From Asanoa iriomotensis (GTDB taxonomy: Bacteria > Actinomycetota > Actinomycetes > Mycobacteriales > Micromonosporaceae): DNA of 64,000 nucleotides. Below, piece after piece: positions 11,733 to 64,000 of this stretch. The translations under genes were made by a program, and so were the position numbers. The stretch's first letter is position 1; each line of letters starts with the position of its first letter. The DNA lies in assembly GCF_016862515.1 (NCBI RefSeq), contig NZ_BONC01000015.1:1-64000 (forward strand), in the 5' to 3' direction. Under the pieces are notes generated by a model. It did not search any database and was not told the DNA's origin. It saw only the letters and a list, made by a program, of their open reading frames with translations.

Positions 11733-12770
11733 GTGGTGGTCGCGTTGCCGTGGGAGGTGGCACCGACGCTCGCGGTGGGCGCGCGGTCGTCGGCGCTCGG
11801 CGCCGGCCGGCTTGCGTGGCTCGGGTCGTTCGCGCACCCGGACGAGGCCCTCGCCGGACTGGCCGCGGCGGCGGGTGTCGCACCGGAGCTGGCCGCCGTG
11901 GACCTGCGCCCGGGTGACCCCGCGCACCTGTGGGCGGCGCGCGCCGGCCTGCCGGTGCGGGCGGTGGCCCGGCACCACGCGCTGGTCGCCGCGACGATGG
12001 CCGCACACGGCCTCGGACCCGACGAGCAGGTGATCGGTTTCGCGTTCGACGGCGGCGGCTACGGCCCGGACGGCGCCACCTGGGGTGGCGAGGTGCTCGT
12101 CGCGGGCTACAAGGGATTCCGGCGGGTCGCCCACCTCGGGTACGTGCGGTGCGTCGGCACGGACCGGCCACATCGGATCGCCCTGGCCCACCTCCGCCAC
12201 GCCGGCTTGCCGTGGGACCTCGACCTGGCTCCGGTCCGCGCCTGCTCGACCCGCGAACGCCGGATCCTGGCCGGCCAACTCGACTCAGGCTTCGGCTGCG
12301 CCACCACAACCAGCGTCGGCCTGCTACTGACCACGATCGCCGCCCTGCACGGCCGGGTCACCGCTCCGCCCGGCGCGGGCCACGATGTGCGCGGGCCGGT
12401 TGCGGCGGTGCCCGGTGCGATCGCCGGCCTGCACGGGTTGGCCGGTGGGCGGGCGGCTGGCGGCGAGCCGTACCCGATGCGGGGTCTCGATCCTGGTGCG
12501 CTGGTTCGTGCGGTGGTCGCGGACGTGCGCGCCGGAGTGCCCGCCCAGGCGATCGACGCCCGAGTGCGGGCGACGCTCGTCGCCCTGGTGGCCGATCAGG
12601 CGCGCCGGTGTGCGCGCGAGACCGGCCTCGACGTCGTCGTCCTGGCCGGCGACGTGTTCGACGACCCGGCACTGACCGTGGAAGCACAGGGAAACCTGCC
12701 GGATCTCACGGTGCTGGCTGGCCGGCCGCCGATGGCGTTGGGACGGTTGCTGTGCGCAGCGGCCGGCTGA
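11733..12770 (+). CDS. orphan HypF C-terminal (Kae1-like) domain protein
   Basis: A 345-aa protein matching only the Kae1-like part of carbamoyltransferase HypF. Recognisable pieces are RHHALVAATM (HypF usually HHHAH), VIGFAFDGGGYG (usually DGTGYG), TWGGEVLVA, TTTSVGLLLTTIAAL (usually TSSxGRLFD) and VVLAGDVF (usually SGGVFQN). The acylphosphatase, zinc-finger and YrdC-like domains are absent, and no hydrogenase or hyp genes are nearby. Several metal and nucleotide residues are altered, so it may be inactive in carbamoyl transfer or repurposed. The start is uncertain: GTG at 11733 is chosen, and a TTG at 11688 also opens the frame. Its 3' end overlaps the convergent MFS gene by 65 bp. Confidence 0.7.
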   Translation: MVVALPWEVAPTLAVGARSSALGAGRLAWLGSFAHPDEALAGLAAAAGVAPELAAVDLRPGDPAHLWAARAGLPVRAVARHHALVAATMAAHGLGPDEQVIGFAFDGGGYGPDGATWGGEVLVAGYKGFRRVAHLGYVRCVGTDRPHRIALAHLRHAGLPWDLDLAPVRACSTRERRILAGQLDSGFGCATTTSVGLLLTTIAALHGRVTAPPGAGHDVRGPVAAVPGAIAGLHGLAGGRAAGGEPYPMRGLDPGALVRAVVADVRAGVPAQAIDARVRATLVALVADQARRCARETGLDVVVLAGDVFDDPALTVEAQGNLPDLTVLAGRPPMALGRLLCAAAG

Positions 12771-13950
12771 ACCCCGCCAGCAACGCGGTGCCCACAAGGC
12801 AGGTCACGCCGCCGACGGCCAGTGCGGCGCTGCCCGTCATGACCGACGCGACCAGGCCCGCCCGCAGGTTGCCCAGCTCCGGGCCCGCTACGCCGACGAC
12901 GTGTTCGAGGGCGGCTACCCGGCCGAGGTAGGCGTCCGGTGTGGACGTCTGCACGACCGTTCCCCGGGCCACCACCGCCCAGGTGTCCGCGGCGCCCGCC
13001 AGCGCGAGGCAGCCGAGCACCGCGGGCAGCGTGTCGACCACGCCTGCCAAGGCCAGCGCGCCTCCCCAGACCGCGCCGCCGGCCAGCAGCACGACGCCCG
13101 GGCGCGTGCGGCGGGTCGATAGTCCGGACAGGACGGACGCGAGCGCACCGCCGACGCCGATCGCGGTCAGGAACAAGCCCAGGCTCGCCGGCGAGCCGCT
13201 GAACTTCTCCTGGTTGACAACCGGGAACAGGGCCACCGGCATCGCCAGCAGCGTGGCGCACAGGTCGGCGAGCAGGGCGCCCGCCACCGGGCGTGTGCGC
13301 ACCGCGAACCGGATGCCCTCGGCCACCGCGCGCGGGCCGGCGCCGCCCGACGACGTGCCGGTCACCCGGGGGAGCCCGGCGATCCCGATTAGGGCCGCGC
13401 CGAACGAGGCCGCGTCGACCACGAAGCAGATCGGGGCGCCGGCGTACGCGGTGAGCACGCCGGCCGCGGCCGGGCCGAGCAGCATCGCGAGCTGGAACGA
13501 GAGGTGGTTGAGGGCCAGCCCGGCGGCCAGCCGGTCGGGTGGCAGCAGGACCGGCGTGTACGCGCGCAGGGCCGGGTAGGCCAGCGCCGACAGCCCGGAG
13601 TGTGCGGCGGCCAGCGCGAACAGCACGCCGACCGGCGAGGCAGTGGCCGCGGTGACCGCCATCAGCAGGCTGGTCGCGACCAGGCCCCAGGTCGCACCGG
13701 TGGCCAGGCGCCGCCGGTCGACGTGGTCGACGAACGCGCTGCCCAGCAGCGCCACCGCGACCAGCGGCAGCGCGGTGGTCAGGCCCAGCAGGCCGACCAG
13801 CGCCGGGTTGTGCGTGCGGTCCCAGACGGAGAAGACGACCGCGAAGCCGCCGAACTGACCGCCGAAGCCGGACAGCGTGCTGCCCAGCCACAGCCGGCGG
13901 AACGTGGCGTGCTCGCGCAGCGGGCGCAGGTCGACCAGGGCGCCCTTCAC
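12706..13950 (-). CDS. MFS transporter
   Basis: A 414-aa integral membrane protein with about 12 hydrophobic helices. The N-terminus (FRRLWLGSTLSGFGGQFGGF) and the loop FVDHVDRRRLATG between helices 2 and 3 are the MFS-3/enterobactin-exporter-like signature. Its GTG start overlaps the stop of the MarR gene (GTGA), so the regulator and transporter are one operon, presumably for drug or metabolite efflux under MarR control. The last 65 bp overlap the antisense 3' end of the HypF-like gene. Confidence 0.9.
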   Translation of the reverse strand: MKGALVDLRPLREHATFRRLWLGSTLSGFGGQFGGFAVVFSVWDRTHNPALVGLLGLTTALPLVAVALLGSAFVDHVDRRRLATGATWGLVATSLLMAVTAATASPVGVLFALAAAHSGLSALAYPALRAYTPVLLPPDRLAAGLALNHLSFQLAMLLGPAAAGVLTAYAGAPICFVVDAASFGAALIGIAGLPRVTGTSSGGAGPRAVAEGIRFAVRTRPVAGALLADLCATLLAMPVALFPVVNQEKFSGSPASLGLFLTAIGVGGALASVLSGLSTRRTRPGVVLLAGGAVWGGALALAGVVDTLPAVLGCLALAGAADTWAVVARGTVVQTSTPDAYLGRVAALEHVVGVAGPELGNLRAGLVASVMTGSAALAVGGVTCLVGTALLAGFSRPLRTATVPTPSAAGQPAP

Positions 13951-14417
13951 AGGGTGAGGTTGGCGCGCAGCCGGTCGGCGAACGAGCGGCGCTCCAGCGC
14001 GCGCCTGATGTCCTCGACGACGGCGGTCAGCGGGTACGGCAGCTCCGCGTCCAGCTCACGGACCGTGGTCTCGGTGGCCCGCCACTCGGCGACCAGGAAC
14101 GGCACCAGCTCGCGGCCGCGGCCGGAGAGCTTGATCCGCCGGGTGCGGCCGTCGACGTTGTCCGCGTCCTCGACCAGCCCGGCCCGCCGCATCGCGGCGA
14201 CGGTCTGGCTCATGGCCGAGTGGGTGACCGAGATCCGGCCGGCGAGCTGCTGGATGGTCATCGGCTCGTGCCGGGAGAGCTGGATCATCGGCCCGACGAA
14301 CCGGGTGCGCACGTCGCCGATGCCGGCCTCGTCGTAGAGGGCCGCGATGTCGCGATCCAGGCCGTGCAGGAGCGCCCAGACCGGCCCCCAGTGACTGCTG
14401 TCGAGAAGATCTGCCAC
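13947..14417 (-). CDS. MarR-family transcriptional regulator
   Basis: A 156-aa winged-helix repressor. The recognition region reads MTIQQLAGRISVTHSAMSQT, followed by the wing with DNVDGRTRRIKLSGRG. The GTG at 14417 gives a usual MarR length; the frame remains open upstream through the palindrome, but those residues are unlikely to be translated. A TTGACA element on the minus strand (14450-14455) sits such that transcription would begin at or next to this GTG, suggesting a leaderless mRNA. The 22-bp palindrome just upstream is the probable operator, giving autorepression of the marR-MFS operon. Confidence 0.9.
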   Translation of the reverse strand: MADLLDSSHWGPVWALLHGLDRDIAALYDEAGIGDVRTRFVGPMIQLSRHEPMTIQQLAGRISVTHSAMSQTVAAMRRAGLVEDADNVDGRTRRIKLSGRGRELVPFLVAEWRATETTVRELDAELPYPLTAVVEDIRRALERRSFADRLRANLTL

Positions 14418-14430
14418 GGCGTACGATGTA

Positions 14431-14452
14431 ACAGCACTTATATAAGTGCTGT
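14431..14452. promoter_or_regulatory. perfect 22-bp palindromic operator of the MarR-MFS operon
   Basis: A perfect palindrome with half-site ACAGCACTTAT lies between the divergent MarR and ArfB genes, 14 bp from the MarR start. On the minus strand a TTGACA -35 box overlaps its outer end and the palindrome fills the -35/-10 spacer. A bound dimer would therefore block RNA polymerase. It lies 19 bp before the ArfB start, so it could influence that gene too. Confidence 0.8.
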
Positions 14453-14470
14453 CAAGTCTATCCTGACGGC

Positions 14471-14896
14471 ATGGCACCCCTGACCGTCCGCCCCGGCGTG
14501 GAGATCCCCGAGGCCGAGCTTCACTGGCGGTTCTCCCGCTCCTCCGGCCCCGGCGGTCAGGGCGTCAACACCGCCGACTCGCGCGTCGAGCTGAGCTGGG
14601 ACCTCGACGCGACCACCGCGCTCGGGCCGGTGCTGAAGGACCGGGCCCGAGAACGGCTGGCGAACCGCCTGGTCGGGGGCGTGCTCACGGTCGCCGCCTC
14701 CGAGCACCGGGCCCAGCTCCGCAACCGCGAGGCGGCGCTGGCCAGGCTGGCCGCTCTGGTCGCCGGCGCGATCGAGCCGCCACCCCCGCCACGCCGCGCG
14801 ACCCGACCGTCACGAGCCGCCAAGGAACGCCGGATCGCTGCCAAGAAAAGACGCGGAGAGACCAAACGCCTGAGGCGACCGGAGGACGGCAGTTGA
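14471..14896 (+). CDS. arfB: ArfB-type peptidyl-tRNA hydrolase (ribosome rescue)
   Basis: A 141-aa release-factor-like protein. The catalytic GGQ motif is in SSGPGGQGVNTADSRVEL at about 25-40. The C-terminus is a long basic tail (SRAAKERRIAAKKRRGETKR) that in ArfB/YaeJ enters the empty mRNA channel of stalled ribosomes. No codon-recognition domain is present, as expected for ArfB. It hydrolyses peptidyl-tRNA on non-stop complexes in the cytoplasm. It is transcribed divergently from marR and is followed by the ROK gene after 25 bp. Confidence 0.93.
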   Translation: MAPLTVRPGVEIPEAELHWRFSRSSGPGGQGVNTADSRVELSWDLDATTALGPVLKDRARERLANRLVGGVLTVAASEHRAQLRNREAALARLAALVAGAIEPPPPPRRATRPSRAAKERRIAAKKRRGETKRLRRPEDGS

Positions 14897-14921: not shown

Positions 14922-15971
14922 ATGAACAGCGTACGGGCGGTCGAAGGTGACCGGTGGGTGGTCGTCGGCCTCGACAACGGCGGCAATGCCAACAACGCGA
15001 CCGTGCTCGACTCGGCCGGCGACTTTCTGGTCGACGGGCTGCTGGAGAGCCCGAGCCGGGTCAAGGAAGGCCCGGTCGTCGCGGTCCAGGCGCTCGCCGA
15101 GGCGTTCGACAACGTGCTCGACCAGACCGGCGTCCCCCGCGCGGCGGTGCGGTCCGTCGGGCTGGACACCCCGGGCCCGGCCAGCGCCACCGGCGTCATC
15201 TCCGCCAAGGGCTCGACCAACTTCGTCGACCCCGCCTGGCGCGGCTTCGACGTCCGGGGCGCGCTCGAGGAGCGGCTGGGGCTGCCGGTCGTCTACAACA
15301 ACGACGGCAACGCCGCCGCCCTCTACGCGCACCACGTCCACTTCGGACTCGCGGGCAACAGCCGGTCGTCGGTCTCGGCGATCGTCGGCACCGGGCTCGG
15401 CGGCGGCGTGATCGAGGCCGGCCGGATCGTCTCCGGCGCCGCCGGCATGGCCGGTGAGCTGGGGCACGTGCACATTCCGATGCAGGGTCTGCTGGGCGAC
15501 GGCCAGGCGCTGCCGAGCTGCAACTGCGGCTTCGAAGGCGACGCGGAGAGCGTGGCCTCGCTGACCGGCATCGAGCGCAACCTGCTGCCGTACTGGCTGG
15601 CCAGGCATCCCGAGCACCCGCTGGCCGCGGAGCCGTCGCTGGCCACGGCGGCCAAGCTGGTCCGCGGGCTGGGCGAGGCCGGCGACCCGCTGGCGCGCAC
15701 GATCTTCGAGCAGCAGGCGACCGCGATCGGCCGGCTGTTCACGATCGCCGCCAACTTCACCGACCCCGACGCGTACTTCGTCGGCGGCGGCGTGGTCCAG
15801 GCGGGCGCGGAGTTCGGGCAGTGGTTCCTCGACCAGGTCGTGCGCCACACGAGCCTGCGCGACGAGCAGCGCCAGGTGGCGACGTTCGCCCTCGTGCCGG
15901 ACCTCGACATGGCCGGCGCCCGCGGCGCCGCCCTCGCCGCCCGCCAGTCGGTGCCGCGCGGCACCACATAG
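14922..15971 (+). CDS. ROK-family sugar kinase
   Basis: A 349-aa protein of the ROK fold. The N-terminal phosphate loop is VVVGLDNGGNANNATVLD, followed by NNDGNAAALYAH with the catalytic Asp, IVGTGLGGGVIEAG and the ROK zinc-site region GELGHVHIP with CNCGFEGDAES. The zinc cluster has fewer Cys than the CXCGXXGCXE consensus, so metal binding may be weakened. No helix-turn-helix is present, so it is an enzyme rather than a NagC-type repressor. Glucokinase or another hexokinase activity is expected. The neighbours give no hint of substrate. Confidence 0.85.
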   Translation: MNSVRAVEGDRWVVVGLDNGGNANNATVLDSAGDFLVDGLLESPSRVKEGPVVAVQALAEAFDNVLDQTGVPRAAVRSVGLDTPGPASATGVISAKGSTNFVDPAWRGFDVRGALEERLGLPVVYNNDGNAAALYAHHVHFGLAGNSRSSVSAIVGTGLGGGVIEAGRIVSGAAGMAGELGHVHIPMQGLLGDGQALPSCNCGFEGDAESVASLTGIERNLLPYWLARHPEHPLAAEPSLATAAKLVRGLGEAGDPLARTIFEQQATAIGRLFTIAANFTDPDAYFVGGGVVQAGAEFGQWFLDQVVRHTSLRDEQRQVATFALVPDLDMAGARGAALAARQSVPRGTT

Positions 15972-16093
15972 ACGATGGCAGGCCGCCCACCGGCGGTGTA
16001 AGAAAACGATGAATCGACTGTGATCGTTGCCCTCTACCGTCGCCGTCAGTCCAGACATCGGCCTGAACGACGATGCGACGAGAGTGGGGTGAA

Positions 16094-16264
16094 ATGAAGA
16101 CGTTGGAGAATCTCGGCGACCGGCTGCTCAGCCTGTTTGTCCCTAAGACCGACGCGTCGGCCTGCTGGTGCAATACCGGGCCCTGCAGGTTGCCGGATGG
16201 CTCGTCCGGGACAAGGGAGTGCTGCAAGGTTGGTGGCAGGCTCTACTGCGAGCCGTGTTCGTAA
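16094..16264 (+). CDS. cysteine-rich secreted peptide precursor (leader plus 7-Cys core)
   Basis: A 56-aa precursor. Residues 1-23 look like a leader: an amphipathic LENLGDRLLSLFVP helix, then KTDASA, a signal-peptidase-like A-x-A site directly before the first Cys. The 33-residue core has Cys at core positions 1, 3, 8, 20, 21, 29 and 32, with one Trp between the first two (CWC). The leader lacks the basic n-region and long hydrophobic core of a Sec signal. ATG at 16094 is preceded by GAGTGGGG; an ATG at 16073 would add 7 residues but has no ribosome-binding site. Next come redox, export and peptidase genes on the same strand, so this is probably a disulfide-rich bacteriocin- or signal-like peptide. 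Its activity is unknown. Confidence 0.75.
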   Translation: MKTLENLGDRLLSLFVPKTDASACWCNTGPCRLPDGSSGTRECCKVGGRLYCEPCS

Positions 16265-16274
16265 GTTCGGCATG

Positions 16275-16301
16275 GCCGGGCCAGACGGTGTCTGGCCCGG
16301 C
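16275..16301 (+). terminator. hairpin between precursor peptide gene and processing genes
   Basis: A perfect 12-bp inverted repeat (arm GCCGGGCCAGAC) with a 3-nt loop begins 10 bp after the precursor stop and ends 68 bp before the MauE-like gene. There is no T-run. Its position suggests partial termination or 3'-end protection, giving more precursor mRNA than processing-enzyme mRNA. Confidence 0.65.
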
Positions 16302-16369
16302 ACTCGCCGCCCAGGCGACTACTCCGAGGGTTCGTCGATACTGCCCAACGGGTCTTCCTAGGGAGCCAC

Positions 16370-16978
16370 ATGGTTATCGCCCTGGCCGGGCAGGCCTTGC
16401 TGGGCACGGTCTTCGCCGTCTCGGCCGTGGCCAAGCTGCGCGACGGGACCGCGTTTCGGCGGTTCGCCGAGCAGGTGCTCGCGCTTCGCATCCATAACCG
16501 GGCAGCGTTGGTGTGGGCGCACCGTGCGGTCACGCTCGGCACGCTGTCCGGTGAGCTCGCCGTGGCCGTCCTGCTGCTCGCGCCGGTCGTGGTGCCGACG
16601 TTGCCGCGCTGGTCGGTCGGCGCGGGTTACACACTCGCTGTGGTTTTGCTGCTCGCCTTCACCGCCGCGTTGTGGCTTGCCGTTCGCCGCGGCGTACGCG
16701 CCGGATGCGGGTGCTTTGGCCGCGCGGAGACACCGGCCGGAATGTGGCAGGTGGGGCGCAATGCGGTGCTGGTCGCGATCGCTGCGATTGGGCTGCTCAC
16801 AGGATCGGTCAACAGCGTCGCGACGCCGAGAGCCGGAGCCGACGTGGTCGTGGATGTCGTGATCGGGGTCGCGCTGGCCATCGTCGTGATGAGCCTGCAC
16901 GAGCTGACGAGCCTGTTTCGCCCCGGCACACGATCGTCGTCGATGGCGGTGCCGTCCGAACGAAAGGGTTGGAGGTGA
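16370..16978 (+). CDS. MauE/DoxX-like redox-associated membrane protein
   Basis: A 202-aa protein with four to five transmembrane helices. It contains the MauE hallmark AGCGCFGRAE in a membrane-proximal loop at about 113-122. In methylamine-dehydrogenase clusters MauE works with the thioredoxin-like MauD to form the disulfides of the Cys-rich small subunit. Here the next gene is also a membrane-anchored thioredoxin, and the preceding gene is a Cys-rich peptide. It is therefore inferred to shuttle electrons between the membrane and the disulfide-forming protein. ATG at 16370 follows an AGGGAG-type site. Its stop overlaps the ribosome-binding region of the next gene. Confidence 0.85.
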   Translation: MVIALAGQALLGTVFAVSAVAKLRDGTAFRRFAEQVLALRIHNRAALVWAHRAVTLGTLSGELAVAVLLLAPVVVPTLPRWSVGAGYTLAVVLLLAFTAALWLAVRRGVRAGCGCFGRAETPAGMWQVGRNAVLVAIAAIGLLTGSVNSVATPRAGADVVVDVVIGVALAIVVMSLHELTSLFRPGTRSSSMAVPSERKGWR

Positions 16979-16980
16979 AC

Positions 16981-17511
16981 ATGGCCGTCGCGGTCGCCGT
17001 ACTCGGTCTGTTCTGCTTGGCGAATCTGTTGCTTACCGTTGGCGTGGTCCGCCGGCTACGGGACCACAGCGCGATGTTGGAGCTGGTGGGTGGACCCGAG
17101 GTGATCAGTCCTGTCGGTTCCGCGGTCGATGAGTACGCGGCCGTGGCGATCGACGGGGCGAGCGTCCGGCGCGATCTGCTGGTCGGGCTCACGCTGGTCG
17201 GGTTCTTTTCCCCCACGTGCGGGCCGTGTCATGAGCGGCTGCCGTTGTTCGTCACGCGGGCCCGCCTCATGCCGGCCGAGCGCGTGCTCGCCGTCGTGGT
17301 CGGCCAAGGCGACGACGACAGCGACGGTACGCGGGAGATCGTCGGCCGGCTGACCGAAGTCGCGACGGTCGTCGTCGAGCCGCCCAACGGCGTCCTGGCG
17401 CAGGCGTTCGGCGTACGCGGCTTCCCCGCTTTTGCCCTGGTCGACGCGTCCGGCGAGGTGGTGGGTGCTGGCACAGATCCCGCAACCCTTCCGGTCGCGG
17501 TGGCCTGGTAA
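16981..17511 (+). CDS. membrane-anchored TlpA/MauD-like thioredoxin
   Basis: A 176-aa protein with an N-terminal transmembrane anchor (LGLFCLANLLLTVGVV at about 8-23) and an extracellular thioredoxin fold. The active site CGPC is in GFFSPTCGPCHERLPLF at about 78-94. The cis-Pro loop is GVRGFPAFAL. ATG is preceded by GGAGGTGAAC. The CGPC motif is more often reducing or isomerising than strongly oxidising; with the MauE-like partner it could make or correct disulfides in the exported peptide. It is 16 bp from the ABC exporter gene. Confidence 0.9.
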   Translation: MAVAVAVLGLFCLANLLLTVGVVRRLRDHSAMLELVGGPEVISPVGSAVDEYAAVAIDGASVRRDLLVGLTLVGFFSPTCGPCHERLPLFVTRARLMPAERVLAVVVGQGDDDSDGTREIVGRLTEVATVVVEPPNGVLAQAFGVRGFPAFALVDASGEVVGAGTDPATLPVAVAW

Positions 17512-17526
17512 GGGCAGGGGTCGCGC

Positions 17527-19368
17527 GTGAAGGGGAGCGCCCGGTGGCGACGATCGACGGCGGTTGGAGCTCTCGCCCTCGCCTGGCGCGCCGCGCCCTT
17601 CTTGGTTGTCGCCCTGGTCCTGGTGAGCGTGGTCATGGCGGTCGCACCGGTCACCGCCGCGTGGCTGACGAAGGTGGTGCTCGACCGATTGGTTGCCGGT
17701 GGCGGCGATCGGACGGCGCTGCTCGGTCACACGCTGGGCCTTTGTCTGGCCGGACTGGTGAGCGCTGTCGCTCCGCACGTGGCCCGCTACGTCAGAGCGG
17801 AGCAGGGTCGGCGGGTGGGCATTCTCGCCCGCGACGAGTTGTTCACCTCGGTGGAGCGGTTCGTCGGGCTGGCGCCGTTCGAGGATCCGGCCTTCGTCGA
17901 TCGGCTTCGGCTGGCGCAACGGGCCGGAGCCGGCAGCCCCAACGGAGTGCTCGACGGCATCGTGGGCATCGCCGGCAGCGCGCTGGCGGTGGCCGGCTTT
18001 TTCGGCGCGCTGGCGGTGCTCAATCCGGTCATGAGCGGTGTCGTGGTCGCCGCGGCGGTGCCGGCCCTTCTCGCGCAGCTCGCGATCTCACGGCGCCGGG
18101 CGGCCGCGATGTGGGCGATCGGTCGGCCGGAGCGCCTGGAGTTCTTCTATCAGTCGCTGCTGTCCACGGTGGAGGCCGCGAAGGAGATCCGGCTCTTCGG
18201 CACCGGCGCGGTGCTGCGGCAGCGGATGCTCGCGGAGCGGCGGAGCGCGGACACGACCGTGCGCGCGGTGGATCGGCGCGAGTTGCGCAGCCAGGGCCTG
18301 TTGGGTTTGGTCGGGGCGGCGGTCGCCGGCGGGGGCCTGTTCTGGGCCGTGTCGGCCGCCTGGTCGGGGCACATGACCATCGGGGATGTGTCGATGTTCG
18401 TGGTGTCCGTGGCCGGCGTGCAGGCGGCCCTCAGCGCCCTGGTGATCCAGGTGGCTTCGACGCACCAGCATCTGCTCCTGTTCCGACATCACCTGGACGT
18501 GGTCGGGTCGGACCCGGAAATGCCCGTCCGGCGCCCGGCTCTGGTCGCCGCGCCACTGCGGCAGGGCATTGAGGTACGCGACGTCTGGTTCCGCTACTCC
18601 GACGAGCACCCGTGGATCCTGCGCGGCGTGAGCTTCACGATTCCAAGTGGCACCACGGTCGCGCTGGTCGGCCGCAACGGTGCTGGAAAGTCCACTTTGG
18701 TCAAGCTCTTGTGCCGCTTCTACGACCCGGTGCGGGGCAGCATTCTTTGGGACGGGGTCGATATCAGGGATCTCGATCCGCCGACGCTGCGTAGCCGCAT
18801 CGGCGCGGTGTTCCAGGATTTCGCCAGCTACGACCTCTCCGCGGCGGACAACATCGGCCTCGGCGACGTCTCGGCACTCGGCGACCTGCGGCGTATCGAA
18901 TCCGCGGCCCGCACCGCGGGCGTACACGATGTGCTCGCTGCCCTCCCGCACAGGTACGACACGGAGTTGAGCCGCATCTACACCGACGAGAACGACCCGA
19001 GCGCGGGGGTGGTGCTCTCGGGTGGTCAATGGCAGCGGGTCGCGCTGGCCCGGGCGATGGTGCGGGCCCAGTGCGACCTGTTGATCTGCGACGAGCCGAA
19101 CTCCGGGCTCGACGCCGAGGCCGAGTACGAGGTCCACGAGACGCTGAGGCGGCACCGAGACGGCCGGACCAGCATTCTTATCTCGCACCGACTCTCCGCC
19201 TTGCGTGATGCGGACCGCATCGTCGTGCTCGAGGGCGGCGTCGTGGTCGAGGAAGGTCGCCACGACGGCCTGTTGGCCCTGTCCGGGCGGTACGCGGGTC
19301 TGTTCGAGCGCCAGGCCGCGGGATACCGGGAGCAGGCGGCGGAATCCCGGGAAGAGGCGCTGACGTGA
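17527..19368 (+). CDS. ABC exporter (fused permease-ATPase) for the Cys-rich peptide
   Basis: A 613-aa half-transporter. The membrane domain with about six helices spans 1-330. The ATPase has Walker A GRNGAGKST, signature LSGGQ, Walker B LLICDEP with an unusual NSGLDAE D-loop context, and the H-loop ISHRL. It has no N-terminal C39 peptidase, so leader removal must be done by another enzyme, which the overlapping downstream S26 peptidase supplies. The long insert before the signature motif (IYTDENDPSAGVV) occurs in several peptide exporters. The GTG start is chosen at 17527. The stop overlaps the next GTG (GTGA). Confidence 0.9.
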   Translation: MKGSARWRRSTAVGALALAWRAAPFLVVALVLVSVVMAVAPVTAAWLTKVVLDRLVAGGGDRTALLGHTLGLCLAGLVSAVAPHVARYVRAEQGRRVGILARDELFTSVERFVGLAPFEDPAFVDRLRLAQRAGAGSPNGVLDGIVGIAGSALAVAGFFGALAVLNPVMSGVVVAAAVPALLAQLAISRRRAAAMWAIGRPERLEFFYQSLLSTVEAAKEIRLFGTGAVLRQRMLAERRSADTTVRAVDRRELRSQGLLGLVGAAVAGGGLFWAVSAAWSGHMTIGDVSMFVVSVAGVQAALSALVIQVASTHQHLLLFRHHLDVVGSDPEMPVRRPALVAAPLRQGIEVRDVWFRYSDEHPWILRGVSFTIPSGTTVALVGRNGAGKSTLVKLLCRFYDPVRGSILWDGVDIRDLDPPTLRSRIGAVFQDFASYDLSAADNIGLGDVSALGDLRRIESAARTAGVHDVLAALPHRYDTELSRIYTDENDPSAGVVLSGGQWQRVALARAMVRAQCDLLICDEPNSGLDAEAEYEVHETLRRHRDGRTSILISHRLSALRDADRIVVLEGGVVVEEGRHDGLLALSGRYAGLFERQAAGYREQAAESREEALT

Positions 19369-19793
19369 CCTGGCTCGGCATCCTGTGGGCGGTGGCGGTG
19401 TTCGCGGGCTGCGTTCTCTGGTGGGTGACCAACCGGCTGCGAATCGCGACCATCAACGGGTCGAGCATGGCACCGGCACTGTCCGACGGCGACCGGGTCC
19501 TGGTCCGGCGGGTGCGCGCCTCGACCCTGCGCCGGGGCGACGTGGTGATGGTGTCCCTGGTCGCGGACGCCACGCGCCCCGGCGCGAACCCGATCCGTCA
19601 TGTGGTCAAGCGGGTCGCCGCGCTGCCGGGCGAACCCGTCCCGGATGACGTACCTGCCGAAGGCATGCGGGTTGTGCCGCGGGGCATGCTCGTCCTCCTC
19701 GGTGACAACCCGAGCCAAAGCATAGATTCGCGCGATCTCGGCTATTTCCGCTTGAAGAACGTGTTCGGGGTGGTGACTCGACGCCTACGCTGA
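19365..19793 (+). CDS. S26 type I signal peptidase-like leader peptidase
   Basis: A 142-aa membrane serine peptidase with one N-terminal helix (ILWAVAVFAGCVLWWVTN). The catalytic Ser is in NGSSMAPALSDGD and the catalytic Lys in HVVKRVAALPG. Box E is GDNPSQSIDSRDLGYF. It is shorter than housekeeping LepB. It is translationally coupled to the ABC exporter and is likely dedicated to the Cys-rich precursor, whose leader ends in ASA, a classic S26 cleavage site. The last 9 bp overlap the convergent PPC-domain gene. Confidence 0.9.
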   Translation: MTWLGILWAVAVFAGCVLWWVTNRLRIATINGSSMAPALSDGDRVLVRRVRASTLRRGDVVMVSLVADATRPGANPIRHVVKRVAALPGEPVPDDVPAEGMRVVPRGMLVLLGDNPSQSIDSRDLGYFRLKNVFGVVTRRLR

Positions 19794-20183
19794 TGTTCGT
19801 TCGATGGTCAGCTCATCCCACCCGGTCTCCGGGTGACTCGAGCGCGTGAACCGCCAATCGTCGTCGGCGCCGAGGACGACCTCGACCGTGCCGTTCGGCG
19901 AGACCACGCATCCACCGAGCAGGTGTCCACCGAGGATCGTGCCCGACGGATCGGCCACGGCCAGGTGGACATGCATTCCCGTGGCGGACAGGGTGCCGGC
20001 GGCGGAGATGATCTCGTATTCGTCCAGTGCCGTATGGATATCGGCGAGCCGCAGCGTGATCTGACGCAGACTGCCGACGCAGCTCATCACCCAAGCCGCG
20101 GACAGCCTCTCGCGCCGTACGGTGGACTGCAGCGCCTGTTTGAGATCGGTTCCCGGGTCGAGACGGAGCGGAATCACTCTCAT
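19785..20183 (-). CDS. PPC-domain (DUF296) protein
   Basis: A 132-aa stand-alone PPC/DUF296 protein. The fold's metal-binding signature is present as GMHVHLAVADPSGTILGGHL, with three His. Bacterial and archaeal members form trimers; in plants the same domain accompanies AT-hooks, but no AT-hook is present here. It lies between the peptide cluster (convergent, 9-bp overlap) and the SARP gene (same strand, located downstream). A role in the peptide system is not supported by sequence. Confidence 0.85.
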   Translation of the reverse strand: MRVIPLRLDPGTDLKQALQSTVRRERLSAAWVMSCVGSLRQITLRLADIHTALDEYEIISAAGTLSATGMHVHLAVADPSGTILGGHLLGGCVVSPNGTVEVVLGADDDWRFTRSSHPETGWDELTIERTSA

Positions 20184-20219: not shown

Positions 20220-23024
20220 TCATCGCACGCTCACAGGCGCTTGAGCCAACCTGGCTTTGACCTTCGCCGCGTTGGCGTGCCCGAGATCGTCGAAGACCGC
20301 CACCGCTCGACGCCATGCCTCGCACGCGGGACCGACCTCGCCGGCTGCCTGATAGGCATCGCCGAGATGGACCGATGCCTCGGCCTCGTGGAACCGGTCA
20401 CCCAGCATCTGAAACAAGGCGATCGCTCCCCGATAGCTGGCGATGGCTCGTTTGTGATCTCCGAGGCGATGATGGATGTATCCGAGGCTGTCCCGGGTGT
20501 TCGCCTCGAGCCGGCGATCGCCGACGTCCTGGAGCACCGCCAATGCCTCGGTGCACGAACGCAGCGCCTCGCGATAGTCACCGAGCAGGGCGTGGTACCA
20601 GCCGACCCCGTTGAGCGCCTTGGCCTGGCCCGGCCGGTCGCCTGCGAGCCGAAACAGCTCGAGTCCTCGTGCCGTCAGCCGCAGTGCGTCTGCCGGTCGG
20701 CCCTGGAGTTCGGCGATGCGGCCGAGGCTGTGGTGGGTCCGTGCCTGCCCGCGGTTGTCCGTGAGGTCGGTGAAGAGCACCAGCGCGGCATGGAAGTGGT
20801 CCTGCGCGGCGTCGTATTCGCGAAGCCATTCGTTGACCCGCCCCAGCCACCGGTGGGTAAGCGCGAGCGGGTACGGGTCGTTGAGACGTCGCGCGGACGA
20901 GTGCGCCACCTGCTGGGTCTCCGCCCAGTCCTGCCAGTGACCGCGACGCTCGAAATACCCCGCGAGCGCGCCGGCGATCTGCCAGGCATGCGTATCGAAC
21001 CCGGTGGCCGCGGCGCCACGGATCGCGGCGAGCAGGGCCCGGTACTCGCTGCCGAGCCACCCCAACGCGTCATCGTGGTCCACCGGGCGAGGCAACACCG
21101 CCGCGGGGGACGGTTCCGGGAGATCGAACGAGTCGCGATAGCGGTCGAGGACGTCGGCAGCGGCTACGGCGCCGTGCAGGTAGTGATCGAGCAGGCGACC
21201 GCGGGCCGCCTGCCGGTCGGGCTCGGAATCGAGGCGACCAACGAGTTCGATGGAGTACGCGTGTAACAGGTCGTGACACGTGTACCGACCCGGCACATGC
21301 TCCAAAAGGAGGTGCGCCCGGGTCAGCTCGCGTACGAGTTCAGCGGTCTCGGCTGGTTCGACTCCCAACAGACTCGCCAGCGCCGGCGTGCTCGCATCCG
21401 GTCCGGGGTGGACGCCCAACAGCCGGAACAGCCGGGCGGCGCCGTCGCTGAGTCTGCGGTAGGACCAGGAGAACACGGTACGGATGTCGGCGGACCGGTC
21501 ACCGAGCTCGAACGGGTCGAGGCCGTTGCCGCGACCTCGCAGATCCGCGACCAGCGTCGTCAGCGCGAAGTCCGGGCGCATCGCGGCCTGGGCGGCGATG
21601 ATGGCGAGGGCGAGCGGCAGGCGGGCCGAGATCTCGGTCATGGCCTCGACCGCCGCGGGGTCGGCCGCCACCCGGGCCGCACCGAGCCGTCGCGTCAGCA
21701 GCAATCGCCCCTCCTCGGGCGTGAGAACGTCGAGGGTCATCGCCCGCGCACCCTCCACGGCGACCAGGCCAGCGAGATCGTTACGGCTGGTCACCACCGC
21801 GACGCAGCCCGGCGCTCCGGGCAACAACGGTCGTGCCTGCTCGGCACTGCTCGCGTTGTCCAGCACGACCAGGGTCCTGGTGCCGCCGAGAAGGCTGCGG
21901 TAGAGGTCGATCTGTGCCTGCTGACTGGCTGGGATTCTGGTCGGGCTGACGCTGAGTGCGGCTAGGAAGATCCGGATCGCCTCGGCCGGCGCCATCGGGG
22001 GATGGTCGTCGAAGCCGAGCAGGTTGACGTAGAGCTGGCCGCCCGGAAATCGGTCCCCGACCCGGTGCGCCCAGTGAATCGCCAGTGACGTCTTGCCCAC
22101 GCCCGCCGGGCCGCTGATCGCCGCGATCGGAACGGCCGGCGACTCGGATTCGGCGAGGAGACGGTCCAGTGTGGCGAGATACCTCTCGCGGCCGGTGAAC
22201 CCGGCGACCGCCGGAGGCAGGAGGGCGGGCGCCGACGCCTGCTGTGGAAAGCCTCGTCCGTCCGCGGGCGATGGCAGCGCTCGCGGCTCGGCGACTTCGA
22301 GATCGGCTTCGCCACGCAGGATCGCGATCTCGATTCGCTGGAGTTCGGCGCTGGGATCCAGGCCCAGGTCGTCGGCCAGGTGTTGGCGCGCCTCGCGATA
22401 GATCCGCAACGCGTCGCCCGGGCGGCCGGACCGGTAGAGCGCCAGGACAAGCTGCCCGACCAGCCGTTCTCGGGTCGGATGTGCGGCGACCAGGCTGGTC
22501 AACTCGTCGAGTACGTCGCGATGGTGGCCCAGGCGCAGCCGAGCGTCCGCGCGATCCTCGATGGCGACGAGCCGGCCCTCGTCAAGTCCTCGACAGAGCC
22601 GCTCGCACTGATCCGGTGGTGCCGCGCCGGCCAGCGCAGGTCCGATCCATAGGGCCAGCGCGCGATTGAGGATGTCAACACGGTCGAGGTCGTCCTCGAC
22701 CTCGCGGGCCTGTTCCGTGAGTGCTCGAAACCGGTGAGCGTCGATGGATAGCGGGTCGGTGTGCAGCATGTAGCCGCCTCCCGAGCGCACCAACTCGGCA
22801 CCGGCGAGGACCGAGCGAAGGCGAGACGCGCACACGCGCACCGCATGGACCGCCGTGCGCGGCGGCGATTGCGGCCACATCAGCTCCACGAGGCGATCGA
22901 CCGAAACGACCTGGTTGGCCTCCAATGCCAAGACCGCGAGAACAAATCGCTGCTTACGAGGTCCGAGCGGGATCGGTCGGCCGTGCACGTACGCCTGCAC
23001 CGGTCCTAATAGTCGAATGTCCAT
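20220..23024 (-). CDS. AfsR-type SARP regulator (wHTH-BTAD-NB-ARC-TPR)
   Basis: A 934-aa signal-integrating activator. The N-terminal OmpR-type winged helix spans about 1-95 (LLGPVQAYVHGRPIPLGPRK), then the BTAD region to about 250. An NB-ARC ATPase follows with Walker A GPAGVGKTSLA at about 302 and TLVVLDNASS. TPR-like repeats run from about 690 to the end. The ATG at 23022-23024 has GAGGA upstream; the much longer open frame is chance. Such regulators switch on secondary-metabolite clusters. It starts 246 bp from the divergent GTPase gene. Its closeness to the peptide cluster makes that a possible target. Confidence 0.9.
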   Translation of the reverse strand: MDIRLLGPVQAYVHGRPIPLGPRKQRFVLAVLALEANQVVSVDRLVELMWPQSPPRTAVHAVRVCASRLRSVLAGAELVRSGGGYMLHTDPLSIDAHRFRALTEQAREVEDDLDRVDILNRALALWIGPALAGAAPPDQCERLCRGLDEGRLVAIEDRADARLRLGHHRDVLDELTSLVAAHPTRERLVGQLVLALYRSGRPGDALRIYREARQHLADDLGLDPSAELQRIEIAILRGEADLEVAEPRALPSPADGRGFPQQASAPALLPPAVAGFTGRERYLATLDRLLAESESPAVPIAAISGPAGVGKTSLAIHWAHRVGDRFPGGQLYVNLLGFDDHPPMAPAEAIRIFLAALSVSPTRIPASQQAQIDLYRSLLGGTRTLVVLDNASSAEQARPLLPGAPGCVAVVTSRNDLAGLVAVEGARAMTLDVLTPEEGRLLLTRRLGAARVAADPAAVEAMTEISARLPLALAIIAAQAAMRPDFALTTLVADLRGRGNGLDPFELGDRSADIRTVFSWSYRRLSDGAARLFRLLGVHPGPDASTPALASLLGVEPAETAELVRELTRAHLLLEHVPGRYTCHDLLHAYSIELVGRLDSEPDRQAARGRLLDHYLHGAVAAADVLDRYRDSFDLPEPSPAAVLPRPVDHDDALGWLGSEYRALLAAIRGAAATGFDTHAWQIAGALAGYFERRGHWQDWAETQQVAHSSARRLNDPYPLALTHRWLGRVNEWLREYDAAQDHFHAALVLFTDLTDNRGQARTHHSLGRIAELQGRPADALRLTARGLELFRLAGDRPGQAKALNGVGWYHALLGDYREALRSCTEALAVLQDVGDRRLEANTRDSLGYIHHRLGDHKRAIASYRGAIALFQMLGDRFHEAEASVHLGDAYQAAGEVGPACEAWRRAVAVFDDLGHANAAKVKARLAQAPVSVR

Positions 23025-61708: not shown

Positions 61709-64000
61709 GTGGCCTTGCCAGTTCATCCGGTCCAGCCGGACGACGATGGCGTTGGTGTGCGCCTACAGGTCCTCGGCCCGTTGCGGGCGTGGCGGGACGG
61801 TGTCGAGCTGGAGATCGGCCCCCGGCAGCAGGCGTACCTGCTGGCCCTGCTGCTGGCTCGGGCGGGCAGGCCGGTCAGCGCCAGCGAGTTGATCGATCTG
61901 ATCTGGGACGACGACGCACCCAGCAGCGCGCTCAACGTCGTCCAGAAGTACGTCGGTGCGTTGCGGCGGCTGCTCGAACCCGCGCTCCCTTCCCGGACTA
62001 CCGGCTCGTACCTGCACCGCCGCGGCAACGCCTACCTGTTGACGGCTCCGTCCGGCATGTTGGACCTGGTGGCCTTCCGGGGGCTCGTCGAGGCGGCGGA
62101 GGAGGCCCTCGCGGGGCATCGTCACGAAACGGCGCTCGATCGCTACATCGAAGCGCTCGGCCTGTGGCAGGGCCGTGCGGGCGAGGGATTCACGCATGGG
62201 CCGACGGCGTTGCCGATCTTCGCGGCCCTCGACGACGAGTTCCACACCGCATGCGCGGCGGCGGCCGAACTGGCGATCTCGCTGGGCCGGCCGGAGCTCC
62301 TGCTGCCGGCCTTGCGGCTGGCCGCATCGACGGCGCCGTTCCATGAATCGGTGCAGGCCAGCCTCATTGCCGTCCTCGGGGCCGCCGGACGCCGTGCGGA
62401 GGCGCTGTCGACGTTCCGGGCGGTCAGCGCCTGCCTTGCCGACGAGCTCGGTGTCGACCCCGGCCCGGCGCTGCAAGCGGCATATCTGCGGGTACTGGCG
62501 CAGCCTCCGACGTCTCCGGTCGTGTCGGGTGCGGACGTCGCGGGTGACGGCCCGTCGGCGCCAGCGGCGGCCGGGCTGGTCGGCCGGGCCGAGGAGCTCG
62601 CCATCCTGCGGCACGCCGTCGAGAAGGCACTCACCGGCCACTCGGCGCTCGCCGTCGTCGAAGGCGAACCGGGCGTGGGCAAGACCCGCCTGCTGCAGGA
62701 GGCCGCCGCCGAAGCGAGCCGGCTCGGCGCGTTCGTGGTCTGGGGTTCCTGCCTGGAAGGTGATGGAACGCCGTCGATGTGGCCGTGGGAGCAGGTGCTC
62801 CGCCCGATCCTCGACAGCCTGCCGGCGCCGTTGCGGGAGCACTGGCTCGCCGGTGAGCTCGGCGGCCTCCTCGAACCGCGAACGGACACGGCGGTCGCGC
62901 CCGCGGTGCCGGACAGCGGCGCCCAGTTCCGCCTGCTCGAACAGGTCGTCACCGTCGTCGGGCAGGCCTCGGCGCAACGGCCCACGCTGCTGATCGTCGA
63001 TGATCTTCAATGGGCGGACATCGCCTCGCTCCGGCTGTTCGGCCACCTCGCGGCCCGGCTACCCGCCGGCACGGTGATCATCGGCGCGTTCCGTGACCGG
63101 GCACCCGTGCCCGGCTCTGAATTGTCGCGGGTCCTGGCCGCGGCCAGTCGGCTGCCGGACCACCGCAGGATCCGGCTCGGCCCGCTCGGCCTGACCGAGG
63201 TCACCGAGCTCATCCGCCGCGAAACCGGCCAGGAACCGGACGCTGACGTCGCCCGCGGCATCCATGCGCGTACGGCTGGCAACCCGTTCTTCGTGCGCGA
63301 GCTGTCCCGGCTCCTGAACGACGGCGGCTCGCTGCGCGACGGCGAGGCGGCCGGGGTGCCCGCCACCGTACGAGACGTGGTCCGCGACCGGCTGACCGGT
63401 CTCGACGACACCGCTCGCGACCTGCTGCAGGTCGCCGCGCTCATCGGCCGCGACGTGGACCTCGCCCTGCTCGCCGGCGCGGCCGGCGTCGAGGTCGCGG
63501 ACTGCCTCGAACGCCTCGAACCGCTTCACGCGCTCGGTCTGCTGGAAACCAGGCCGGAAAGCCCGCACTCGCTCCGGTTCGCGCACGACCTCGTCCGCGA
63601 GTCGGTCACCGAGACCACCACGCGGCAGCAGGCCGTCCGGCTGCATCTGCGCGTTGCCGACGCCCTCGAACGCACCCACGTGGACGACGAGTCTGTCGCC
63701 GAACGCCTCGCGTACCACCTGTGGGCCGCCGGCCCGCTCGCCGACCCGGCTCGCACCGCGAAGGCACTGGCCCGCGCCGGCCGCCGCGCGGCGGCCAAGC
63801 TCGCGTTCGCGGCCGCGGCTCGGCACCTGGAGTCGGCCGCCCAGATCGCGCGCACGGCCGGCCTGCGGGACCTGGAGCTGTCGGTCCTGTCACTGCTCAC
63901 CCTGGTCGCCAGGCGGCACGCGGGATACGGCGGCTCGACGTTCGACCTGCTGGAGCGGGCCGAGTACCTGGCCCGCACGCTCGGCCACGAGACGCAGGCC
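61709..64000 (+). CDS. SARP-AAA ATPase regulator, 3' truncated by window edge
   Basis: At least 764 residues are visible; the gene runs off the right edge. The N-terminal winged helix (VRLQVLGPLRAWRDGVELEI then ASELIDLIWDDDAPSSAL) and BTAD region (to about 260) are followed by an AAA_16-type ATPase with Walker A VEGEPGVGKTRLLQ at about 322 and Walker B LLIVDDLQWAD. Beyond it are helical repeats. A C-terminal LuxR or TPR domain may lie outside the window. GTG at 61709 is chosen with GAGGAG upstream; another GTG at 61757 is possible. It probably activates a metabolite or stress programme. Confidence 0.88.
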   Translation, partial: MALPVHPVQPDDDGVGVRLQVLGPLRAWRDGVELEIGPRQQAYLLALLLARAGRPVSASELIDLIWDDDAPSSALNVVQKYVGALRRLLEPALPSRTTGSYLHRRGNAYLLTAPSGMLDLVAFRGLVEAAEEALAGHRHETALDRYIEALGLWQGRAGEGFTHGPTALPIFAALDDEFHTACAAAAELAISLGRPELLLPALRLAASTAPFHESVQASLIAVLGAAGRRAEALSTFRAVSACLADELGVDPGPALQAAYLRVLAQPPTSPVVSGADVAGDGPSAPAAAGLVGRAEELAILRHAVEKALTGHSALAVVEGEPGVGKTRLLQEAAAEASRLGAFVVWGSCLEGDGTPSMWPWEQVLRPILDSLPAPLREHWLAGELGGLLEPRTDTAVAPAVPDSGAQFRLLEQVVTVVGQASAQRPTLLIVDDLQWADIASLRLFGHLAARLPAGTVIIGAFRDRAPVPGSELSRVLAAASRLPDHRRIRLGPLGLTEVTELIRRETGQEPDADVARGIHARTAGNPFFVRELSRLLNDGGSLRDGEAAGVPATVRDVVRDRLTGLDDTARDLLQVAALIGRDVDLALLAGAAGVEVADCLERLEPLHALGLLETRPESPHSLRFAHDLVRESVTETTTRQQAVRLHLRVADALERTHVDDESVAERLAYHLWAAGPLADPARTAKALARAGRRAAAKLAFAAAARHLESAAQIARTAGLRDLELSVLSLLTLVARRHAGYGGSTFDLLERAEYLARTLGHETQA

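Follow-up and report, generated by a model that had tools for sequence, protein, structure and literature searches.

The window analysed here, a stretch of 64,000 nucleotides of the genome of the soil actinomycete Asanoa iriomotensis (contig NZ_BONC01000015.1, positions 1 to 64,000), contains on its + strand, at 16094-19793, five open reading frames (ORFs) that encode a short precursor peptide, a MauE-family membrane protein, a membrane-anchored thioredoxin-like protein (Trx), an ABC exporter, and an S26 signal peptidase-like protein (Table 1). This locus probably serves to secrete a small cysteine-rich peptide and to fold it by oxidation, and the peptide belongs to a large family found in actinomycetes. 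A first-pass annotation, made from the sequence alone, had proposed such a pathway; the coordinates and domain matches of the five genes agree with it, and the proposal is supported by 41 of 45 precursor-anchored loci across the class, which hold all four partner genes. The gene set is a recurrent system whose most likely function is export, trimming, and cross-linking of its peptide. Relatives have the same genes, but their peptides are highly dissimilar, which suggests a large family of natural products that has hardly been studied.

The gene content, the division of the precursor into leader and core, the A-x-A motif at the leader end, the catalytic residues, the co-occurrence of the genes, and the invariance and even number of the Cys residues are read from the sequence; from them we infer an export route, a cleavage step, an oxidative direction of the Trx/MauE pair, and a mode of regulation. 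The SARP-type regulator would activate the locus, and the leader, which is not of the Sec type, would address the precursor to the ABC exporter. The membrane-bound S26 protein would cut after A-x-A during or after export, freeing the core, and at the outer face of the membrane the anchored Trx, recharged by MauE, would then make the disulfides. The released peptide may have an antagonistic or signalling role.

Recurrence of the precursor with its partner genes

A first search of 300 genomes of the organism's own family recovered short ORFs with a shared leader beside Trx, ABC, and S26 genes, and 21 aligned precursors, every one from that family, were used to build a precursor model. This model (E ≤ 0.001) and a Trx model (E ≤ 1e-20) were applied to a sample of 394 genomes of the class, in which 15 precursor candidates and 8 Trx candidates were scored per genome, so that counts from this sample are lower bounds. 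The precursor model matched at least 25 of the 394 genomes, A. iriomotensis included, and the Trx model at least 26, namely the same 25 and one other (G620). All precursor genomes therefore held Trx (25/25), nearly all Trx genomes held a precursor (25/26), and at the thresholds used no precursor match was found among the 368 genomes without Trx. The Trx model includes rows from seven genomes of this sample; when these and A. iriomotensis were dropped, leaving 386 genomes, the proportions were 17/17 and 17/18 (17 genomes with both, none with the precursor only, one with Trx only, and 368 with neither; Fisher p ~1e-28, a value that ignores relatedness).

The 45 class-wide loci are the stretches around all precursor matches outside A. 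iriomotensis; MauE was present in 43, Trx in 43, the ABC exporter in 42, S26 in 43, and a SARP homologue in 25. Among named relatives, the four partner genes lie near the precursor in Longimycelium tulufanense and Streptomyces sp. TRM64462. In a wider set of 105 precursor loci, which includes stretches chosen from genomes with many copies, an ABC homologue was found in 74. The association also holds in the reverse direction; the first-pass annotation had stated that its proposal would fail if no conserved precursor lay beside homologous MauE/TlpA/ABC/S26 sets in other genomes. Among seven Trx loci not reached via a precursor, three (L127, L129, and L132) hold the leader with a Cys-rich core, and the fraction rises to 5/7 if weak precursors below the uniform threshold, in L130 (4 Cys) and L133, are counted. 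Both Embleya plasmids found by Trx alone (2/2) carry ABC and S26 genes and a 6-Cys precursor, so that the nine Trx-anchored loci not found via precursors comprise five with a precursor at the uniform threshold and two more with a weak one. At that threshold L108, L128, L130, L131, and L133 were counted as leader-less, although L108, L130, and L133 have weak leaders.

A hidden Markov model (HMM) of the leader accepted 96 ORFs with a tail of 20-90 amino acids in 90 stretches (1.30 Mb, including part of the window), and none when that DNA was resampled once under an order-3 Markov model. The HMM and 105-locus counts were restricted to tails of 20-90 amino acids, and from the 105-locus counts onward tails with fewer than 2 Cys were also excluded; the lowest count in the HMM listing, made without a Cys filter, was 2. 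Locus L038, which shares its contig with L046, was dropped. A spurious second match in L069 (7311) is contained in the 105-locus count and, below, in the 95-core and 78-pair counts and perhaps in the 97-row count; it was removed from the counts of 121 cores and 27 pairs. The close pairs and many of the loci are not independent observations, since related genomes supplied them. No relatives of the Trx were found in phage records. The precursors bear no library name (NCBIfam matches 0/21 members, and Pfam gives a single marginal match, FWWh, E 0.097, in 1/21). The family follows the general logic of ribosomally synthesized and post-translationally modified peptides (RiPPs) in two respects, a conserved leader joined to a variable core and predicted maturation and export genes that lie beside the precursor.

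The locus in the window and probable removal of the leader

Table 1. Features of the peptide locus in the window
Feature	Coordinates	Strand	Basis
Precursor peptide gene, 56 amino acids (MKTLENLGDRLLSLFVPKTDASA / CWCNTGPCRLPDGSSGTRECCKVGGRLYCEPCS)	16094..16264	+	Family model, leader HMM, aligned start Met
Leader, residues 1-23, ending A-S-A; predicted S26 cut after residue 23	16094..16162	+	
Core of 33 residues with 7 Cys; beta fold of three strands predicted	16163..16261	+	AlphaFold
MauE-family membrane protein, CGCFG loop	16370..16978	+	PF07291
Membrane-anchored thioredoxin/TlpA-like protein (Trx), CGPC	16981..17511	+	Near-cut-off domain matches
ABC exporter (half transporter) lacking a C39 peptidase	17527..19368	+	PF00005
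S26 signal peptidase-like protein and probable leader peptidase; catalytic Ser34 and Lys82 present	19365..19793	+	PF10502, TIGR02227
PCC-domain protein, convergent with S26	19785..20183	-	PF03479 (E 1.6e-24)
SARP-type regulator (BTAD, NB-ARC, TPR), 934 amino acids, probable pathway activator	20220..23024	-	

All seven Cys of the window precursor lie C-terminal to residue 23. An alternative start is possible at 16073; the one at 16094 is preferred because the start Met of two relatives, L042 and L043, aligns with it. The domain matches agree with what the first-pass annotation had taken the partner genes for. The MauE-like protein scores 68.6 bits against PF07291 (gathering score 27, E 8e-19). 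The Trx falls slightly under the cut-offs of the Redoxin and Thioredoxin families, with the CGPC motif present and a single hydrophobic segment at its N-terminus. The ABC exporter matches PF00005 (E 6e-29), with no C39 peptidase among its matches at E up to 1, and its ORF overlaps that of the S26 protein by 4 nucleotides. The five genes stood, and the annotation overlooked the SARP regulator, the PCC-domain gene, and the precursors dispersed elsewhere. Upstream of the locus, an MFS exporter beside a MarR-type regulator (12706-14477, - strand) is followed by genes for an RF-1 domain protein (14471-14896, + strand) and a ROK kinase (14922-15971, + strand), none of which belongs to the gene families common to the peptide loci.

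The leader consensus is GDRLLxxxVPxxxAxA. R10, P17, A21, and A23, all within the leader, are invariant in the 21 aligned precursors, and D9, L12, and three Cys nearly so. Among 97 rows, the 91 with a match that extends to the leader end all have A at -1, A at -3, and P at -7, a count that is partly conditioned because the model favours those residues; L088, L089, L102, and L113 have V at -3, which signal peptidase I also accepts. The 33-residue product predicted by the first-pass annotation fits this A-x-A motif.

In many peptide exporters a C39 peptidase removes such leaders. The S26 protein of the window has the marks of a signal peptidase I, keeping the Ser/Lys dyad and exceeding the family cut-off (TIGR02227, 75.8 bits against 47; PF10502, E 1e-19); S34 and K82 are invariant in 21/21 aligned sequences, and 21/21 match the signal peptidase I model. 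All 21 also match the model of the NiSOD maturation protease SodX (TIGR02754) at E ≤ 1e-5 (best 6.4e-17), the window protein scoring 38.5 bits, under the cut-off of 63.25. Since the leaders end in A-x-A, the S26 protein has its Ser and Lys intact, and the exporter is without C39, S26 is likely the leader peptidase. It could instead be supposed that a housekeeping signal peptidase and general export handle the precursor and that the clustered S26 and ABC proteins serve other cargo, a proposal compatible with disulfides in the peptide. A-x-A is the motif of the housekeeping signal peptidase I as well, some precursors have no S26 or ABC gene near them, and the Trx loci sampled from two many-copy genomes (G007 and G026) are without an ABC of this kind. 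We consider this improbable in view of the window leader, which lacks a Sec-type hydrophobic core (highest 12-residue Kyte-Doolittle mean 0.74), and of the frequency with which S26 (43/45) and ABC (42/45) accompany the precursor across the class.

Cysteine-rich cores and their probable redox partners

The number of Cys is even in 118 of 121 unique cores (2 in one, 4 in one, 6 in 57, 8 in 50, 10 in eight, and 12 in one), and the three odd cores have 7. After reduction to 60% non-redundancy, 92 of 95 are even, one spurious even row being included; nine extra short loci (L142-L145, L147, L172, L180, L189, and L191) are all even, as are five of six precursors beside further Trx loci. Conservation was assessed in 27 close pairs, chosen so that the leader DNA of the two members was identical at 85% or more of positions. 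No Cys column changed (0/172), against 257 of 832 other core columns; the cores diversify and the Cys do not, the constraint on Cys positions that the first-pass annotation expected of a genuine precursor. In the same pairs the proportions of nonsynonymous (pN) and synonymous (pS) differences were 0.047 and 0.162 in the leader and 0.170 and 0.281 in the core. A set of 78 pairs picked by core identity gave no contrast between leader and core (pN/pS 0.59 and 0.62); such a choice favours similar cores, unlike the choice by leader identity that gave the 27 pairs. Mean pairwise identities (leader 0.47, core 0.37) came from a permissive aligner and are not relied upon. The even counts and the unchanging Cys columns together suggest full disulfide pairing.

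AlphaFold predicted a three-stranded beta structure for the window core, with block means of 93, 85, and 88 in predicted local distance difference test (pLDDT) over residues 31-56. Two cores (L090 and L104) have a long C-terminal extension rich in Gly, Pro, and Tyr (GGMGPYGPxTYGP...) that ends in Cys, unlike the others read.

Metal binding is a different use to which such cores could be put, the Cys being ligands for Zn, Cu, or an Fe-S cluster and Trx and MauE keeping them reduced or helping to load the metal. More than half of the non-redundant cores (51 of 95) contain a CC motif, and even counts would also fit sites of two or four Cys ligands. The Cys spacings nevertheless differ widely among subfamilies, an exported peptide with a membrane Trx would suit oxidation better, and no metal transporter or chaperone was seen among the 35 largest neighbour families, assigned by eye from one representative each. 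We regard metal binding as quite improbable. Beyond the four partners, SARP is the commonest of these families (53 loci), followed by an ABC-type ATPase (11 loci), response regulators (9 loci), and a perhaps spurious ORF (9 loci).

K22, E62, C113, C115, F116, G117, R130, and L134 of MauE are invariant in 21 aligned sequences, and the MauE model is helical (mean pLDDT 87). In 18 aligned Trx sequences C80 is invariant and C83 nearly so. The Trx active site varies (CGPC, CSSC, CPAC, CTPC, and others), and Trx/TlpA proteins such as ResA and CcmG can act as reductants; Trx and MauE might thus be a reductase or isomerase, or ready the Cys for thioether, lanthionine, or thiazole enzymes encoded elsewhere. 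No LanB/LanM, radical-SAM, or YcaO protein was recognised in the 35 largest neighbour families, however, and the 21-precursor alignment has no conserved Ser or Thr position in the core, and we judge each of these alternatives unlikely. In both L096 and L100 the precursor lies between two Trx homologues; the homologue at L096:7877-8404 reads CGPT and so lacks the second active-site Cys.

MauE family membership, and the precedent of MauD and MauE (PMC7794033), would also allow the small protein to be a subunit of a larger enzyme, like MauA, which the gene set matures. None of the recurrent families was recognised as a dehydrogenase, and the precursors are hypervariable and amplified, to at least 17 in some genomes, unlike a constant subunit, which makes this very improbable indeed.

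The 7-Cys core of the window was correctly described by the first-pass annotation, which overlooked that an odd number is exceptional in a family whose norm is even. Cores with 7 Cys are those of the window precursor, L042, and L043. A model of this branch gave its own three members E ≤ 1.4e-27, by construction, and a next match of 3e-10 in 354 genomes of the family; among the weaker matches that were read, which are a part of the total, none has 7 Cys. Among the scanned stretches, the same three loci alone have a PCC-domain gene opposite S26 with the 3' ends meeting. The 7-Cys type did not turn up in the five other genomes of the genus, two of which contain other family members. Comparison with a 6-Cys relative (L044) places the additional Cys at mature position 1. 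In this branch, three intramolecular disulfides would leave one Cys, probably that at mature position 1, free or available for a covalent dimer. The calculated monoisotopic mass of the predicted window product is 3536.464 in reduced form and 3530.417 with three disulfides, and a dimer in which all 14 Cys are paired would have 7058.819.

Regulation, dispersed precursors, and comparison with known systems

The window regulator matches PF03704 (BTAD, 130 bits) and PF00486 (Trans_reg_C, 28.2 bits against 26.2). Of the 74 loci that combine a precursor with Trx and ABC, 44 also have a SARP homologue; its median distance from the precursor is 325 bp, and it lies within 1 kb in 28/44 and on the opposite strand in 31/44. 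Given 35 BTAD matches across the 8.57 Mb of the A. iriomotensis genome, a SARP would be expected by chance in an estimated 6% or so of 14 kb stretches. A promoter and terminator consensus scan of 15900-16450 gave nothing, and no repeats usable as a SARP operator were found around the precursor and SARP starts. A second SARP homologue lies in the window at 61757-62839 (+ strand), and no precursor was found near it.

At least one precursor match was found in 119 of 354 genomes of the family, and four (G007, G026, G083, and G075) have at least 17 each. G004 has 12 precursors and G066 has 8, with one Trx each; their Trx loci contain MauE, ABC, and S26 genes and no precursor within the 15 kb stretch. 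Twenty stretches at further precursors of G007, G083, G026, and G004 contain no Trx, S26, or MauE. A weak ABC match (E 1e-20) was found in L171, where three precursor copies stand in tandem. Because these partner genes are not seen beside the dispersed copies, and G004 and G066 each show one complete machine, the dispersed copies may be processed in trans, most clearly in G004 and G066. The sole other accepted leader-like ORF of A. iriomotensis (G000:C23:48419-48541, L041:6917-7078; RRIASLGDRLLDSLVPNAKATA...) has 2 Cys in a tail of 30 amino acids and a SARP nearby, with no Trx, ABC, or S26; it is perhaps a decayed or different precursor.

Several observations weigh against the account given above. 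The odd Cys count of the window peptide makes pairing of all its Cys within one chain impossible, and a 5-Cys core beside Trx, S26, and SARP genes (L199:6833-), the exception among the six further Trx-locus precursors, is the sole odd count seen outside the 7-Cys branch. In 28 of the 105 precursor loci there is no Trx, ABC, S26, or MauE gene near, 20 of these having been sampled because their genomes hold many copies; of 76 Trx-bearing loci, 13 showed no MauE close to the precursor, and the Trx loci L128 and L131 have no recognisable precursor. G075 has 17 Trx matches, so that a pattern of few machines is not shown there. In ten Trx stretches from G004, G066, G083, G007, G026, and G040 the full set was found only in L192, L193, and L194; the others (L195-L201) are without an ABC of this kind and mostly without MauE, at looser thresholds too, and in G007 and G026 the exporter was not located, no such ABC lying beside the Trx loci sampled. 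Neither the MauE model nor the window core matched a PDB fold at E ≤ 0.001, and sequence profiles of the two found no PDB chain; because no solved structure matches, the redox direction and the fold are without structural support.

Two established peptide classes fit the locus poorly. A glycocin of the sublancin type was rejected, the ABC being without C39 and no S- or O-glycosyltransferase being clustered with it; no glycosyltransferase appeared among the scanned window proteins, and none was recognised by eye in the 35 largest neighbour families. A lanthipeptide or sactipeptide was likewise rejected, since no LanB/C/M/KC/L or radical-SAM protein was found in the seven proteins of 14922-20183 or in the recurrent families, a negative that covers genes at and around the loci. 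In the prochlorosins, which are lanthipeptides, a single LanM processes many precursors that have a leader in common and differ strongly in their cores; one machine serving many precursors is the likeness to the present family, in which the predicted cross-links are disulfides.

MauD is a thioredoxin-fold partner comparable to the Trx found here. The parallels that the first-pass annotation drew with sublancin and with MauD and MauE apply to the logic, the parts differing in both. MauD and MauE mature methylamine dehydrogenase, and that system too combines a MauE-family protein with a Cys-rich substrate (PMC7794033); here the substrate is short and hypervariable, with a cleavable leader and ABC and S26 partners, and no dehydrogenase genes were recognised nearby. 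The sublancin 168 operon (sunA-sunT-bdbA-sunS-bdbB), as far as its published description was compared, likewise unites a precursor, an ABC exporter, and a thiol oxidoreductase, and two disulfides are formed with BdbB; there SunT itself removes the leader and SunS adds a sugar, whereas here C39 is lacking and the S26 protein is separate (PMC6391423). TMcins are disulfide-containing peptides matured at the membrane, in which a dedicated membrane protease removes the leader; the portion of their description compared gives a transmembrane helix in the precursor and an S2P-type zinc protease (PMC13252029), neither of which is seen here. The window leader is not hydrophobic and the core is predicted to be beta; no DUF3267 protease is among the matches of the scanned window proteins, the other loci not having been searched for DUF3267.

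The closest precedent is decRiPPter (2020), which listed, in Streptomyces, three candidate RiPP families that contain MauE. Their predicted precursors have 8 Cys or more, MauE homologues (and once a MauD homologue) lie beside the precursor and were proposed to act on it, and other mau genes are absent (PMC7794033). The likeness is drawn from its main-text description alone, which does not contain the terms 'signal peptidase', 'S26', or 'SARP', and the description compared gives no leader definition or count outside Streptomyces (PMC7794033). The first-pass annotation recognised no named class for this set, and libraries give the precursors no name; the decRiPPter candidate families qualify its view. 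In the open-licence literature searched, no title or opening of an abstract describes this leader, its removal by S26, or dispersed precursor families.

RiPP-like disulfide peptides of this kind stand a fair chance of being a class of their own. Such a separate class, for and against which we find the balance even, would be marked by the GDRLLxxxVPxxxAxA leader, its removal by S26, ABC export, MauE-Trx folding, SARP control, dispersed arsenals served in trans, and a 7-Cys dimer; the case is weakened because seven of the ten Trx stretches in many-copy genomes are without the exporter. If the pathway is as proposed, the actinomycetes would hold a widespread natural-product family that could be mined by a simple signature, with naturally evolved disulfide-stabilised scaffolds and a portable machine for export and folding. 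It would give MauE a testable role beyond methylamine metabolism and make an S26 signal peptidase the leader peptidase beside an ABC exporter without C39, and the rule of even Cys numbers, with its 7-Cys exception, would yield sharp chemical predictions.

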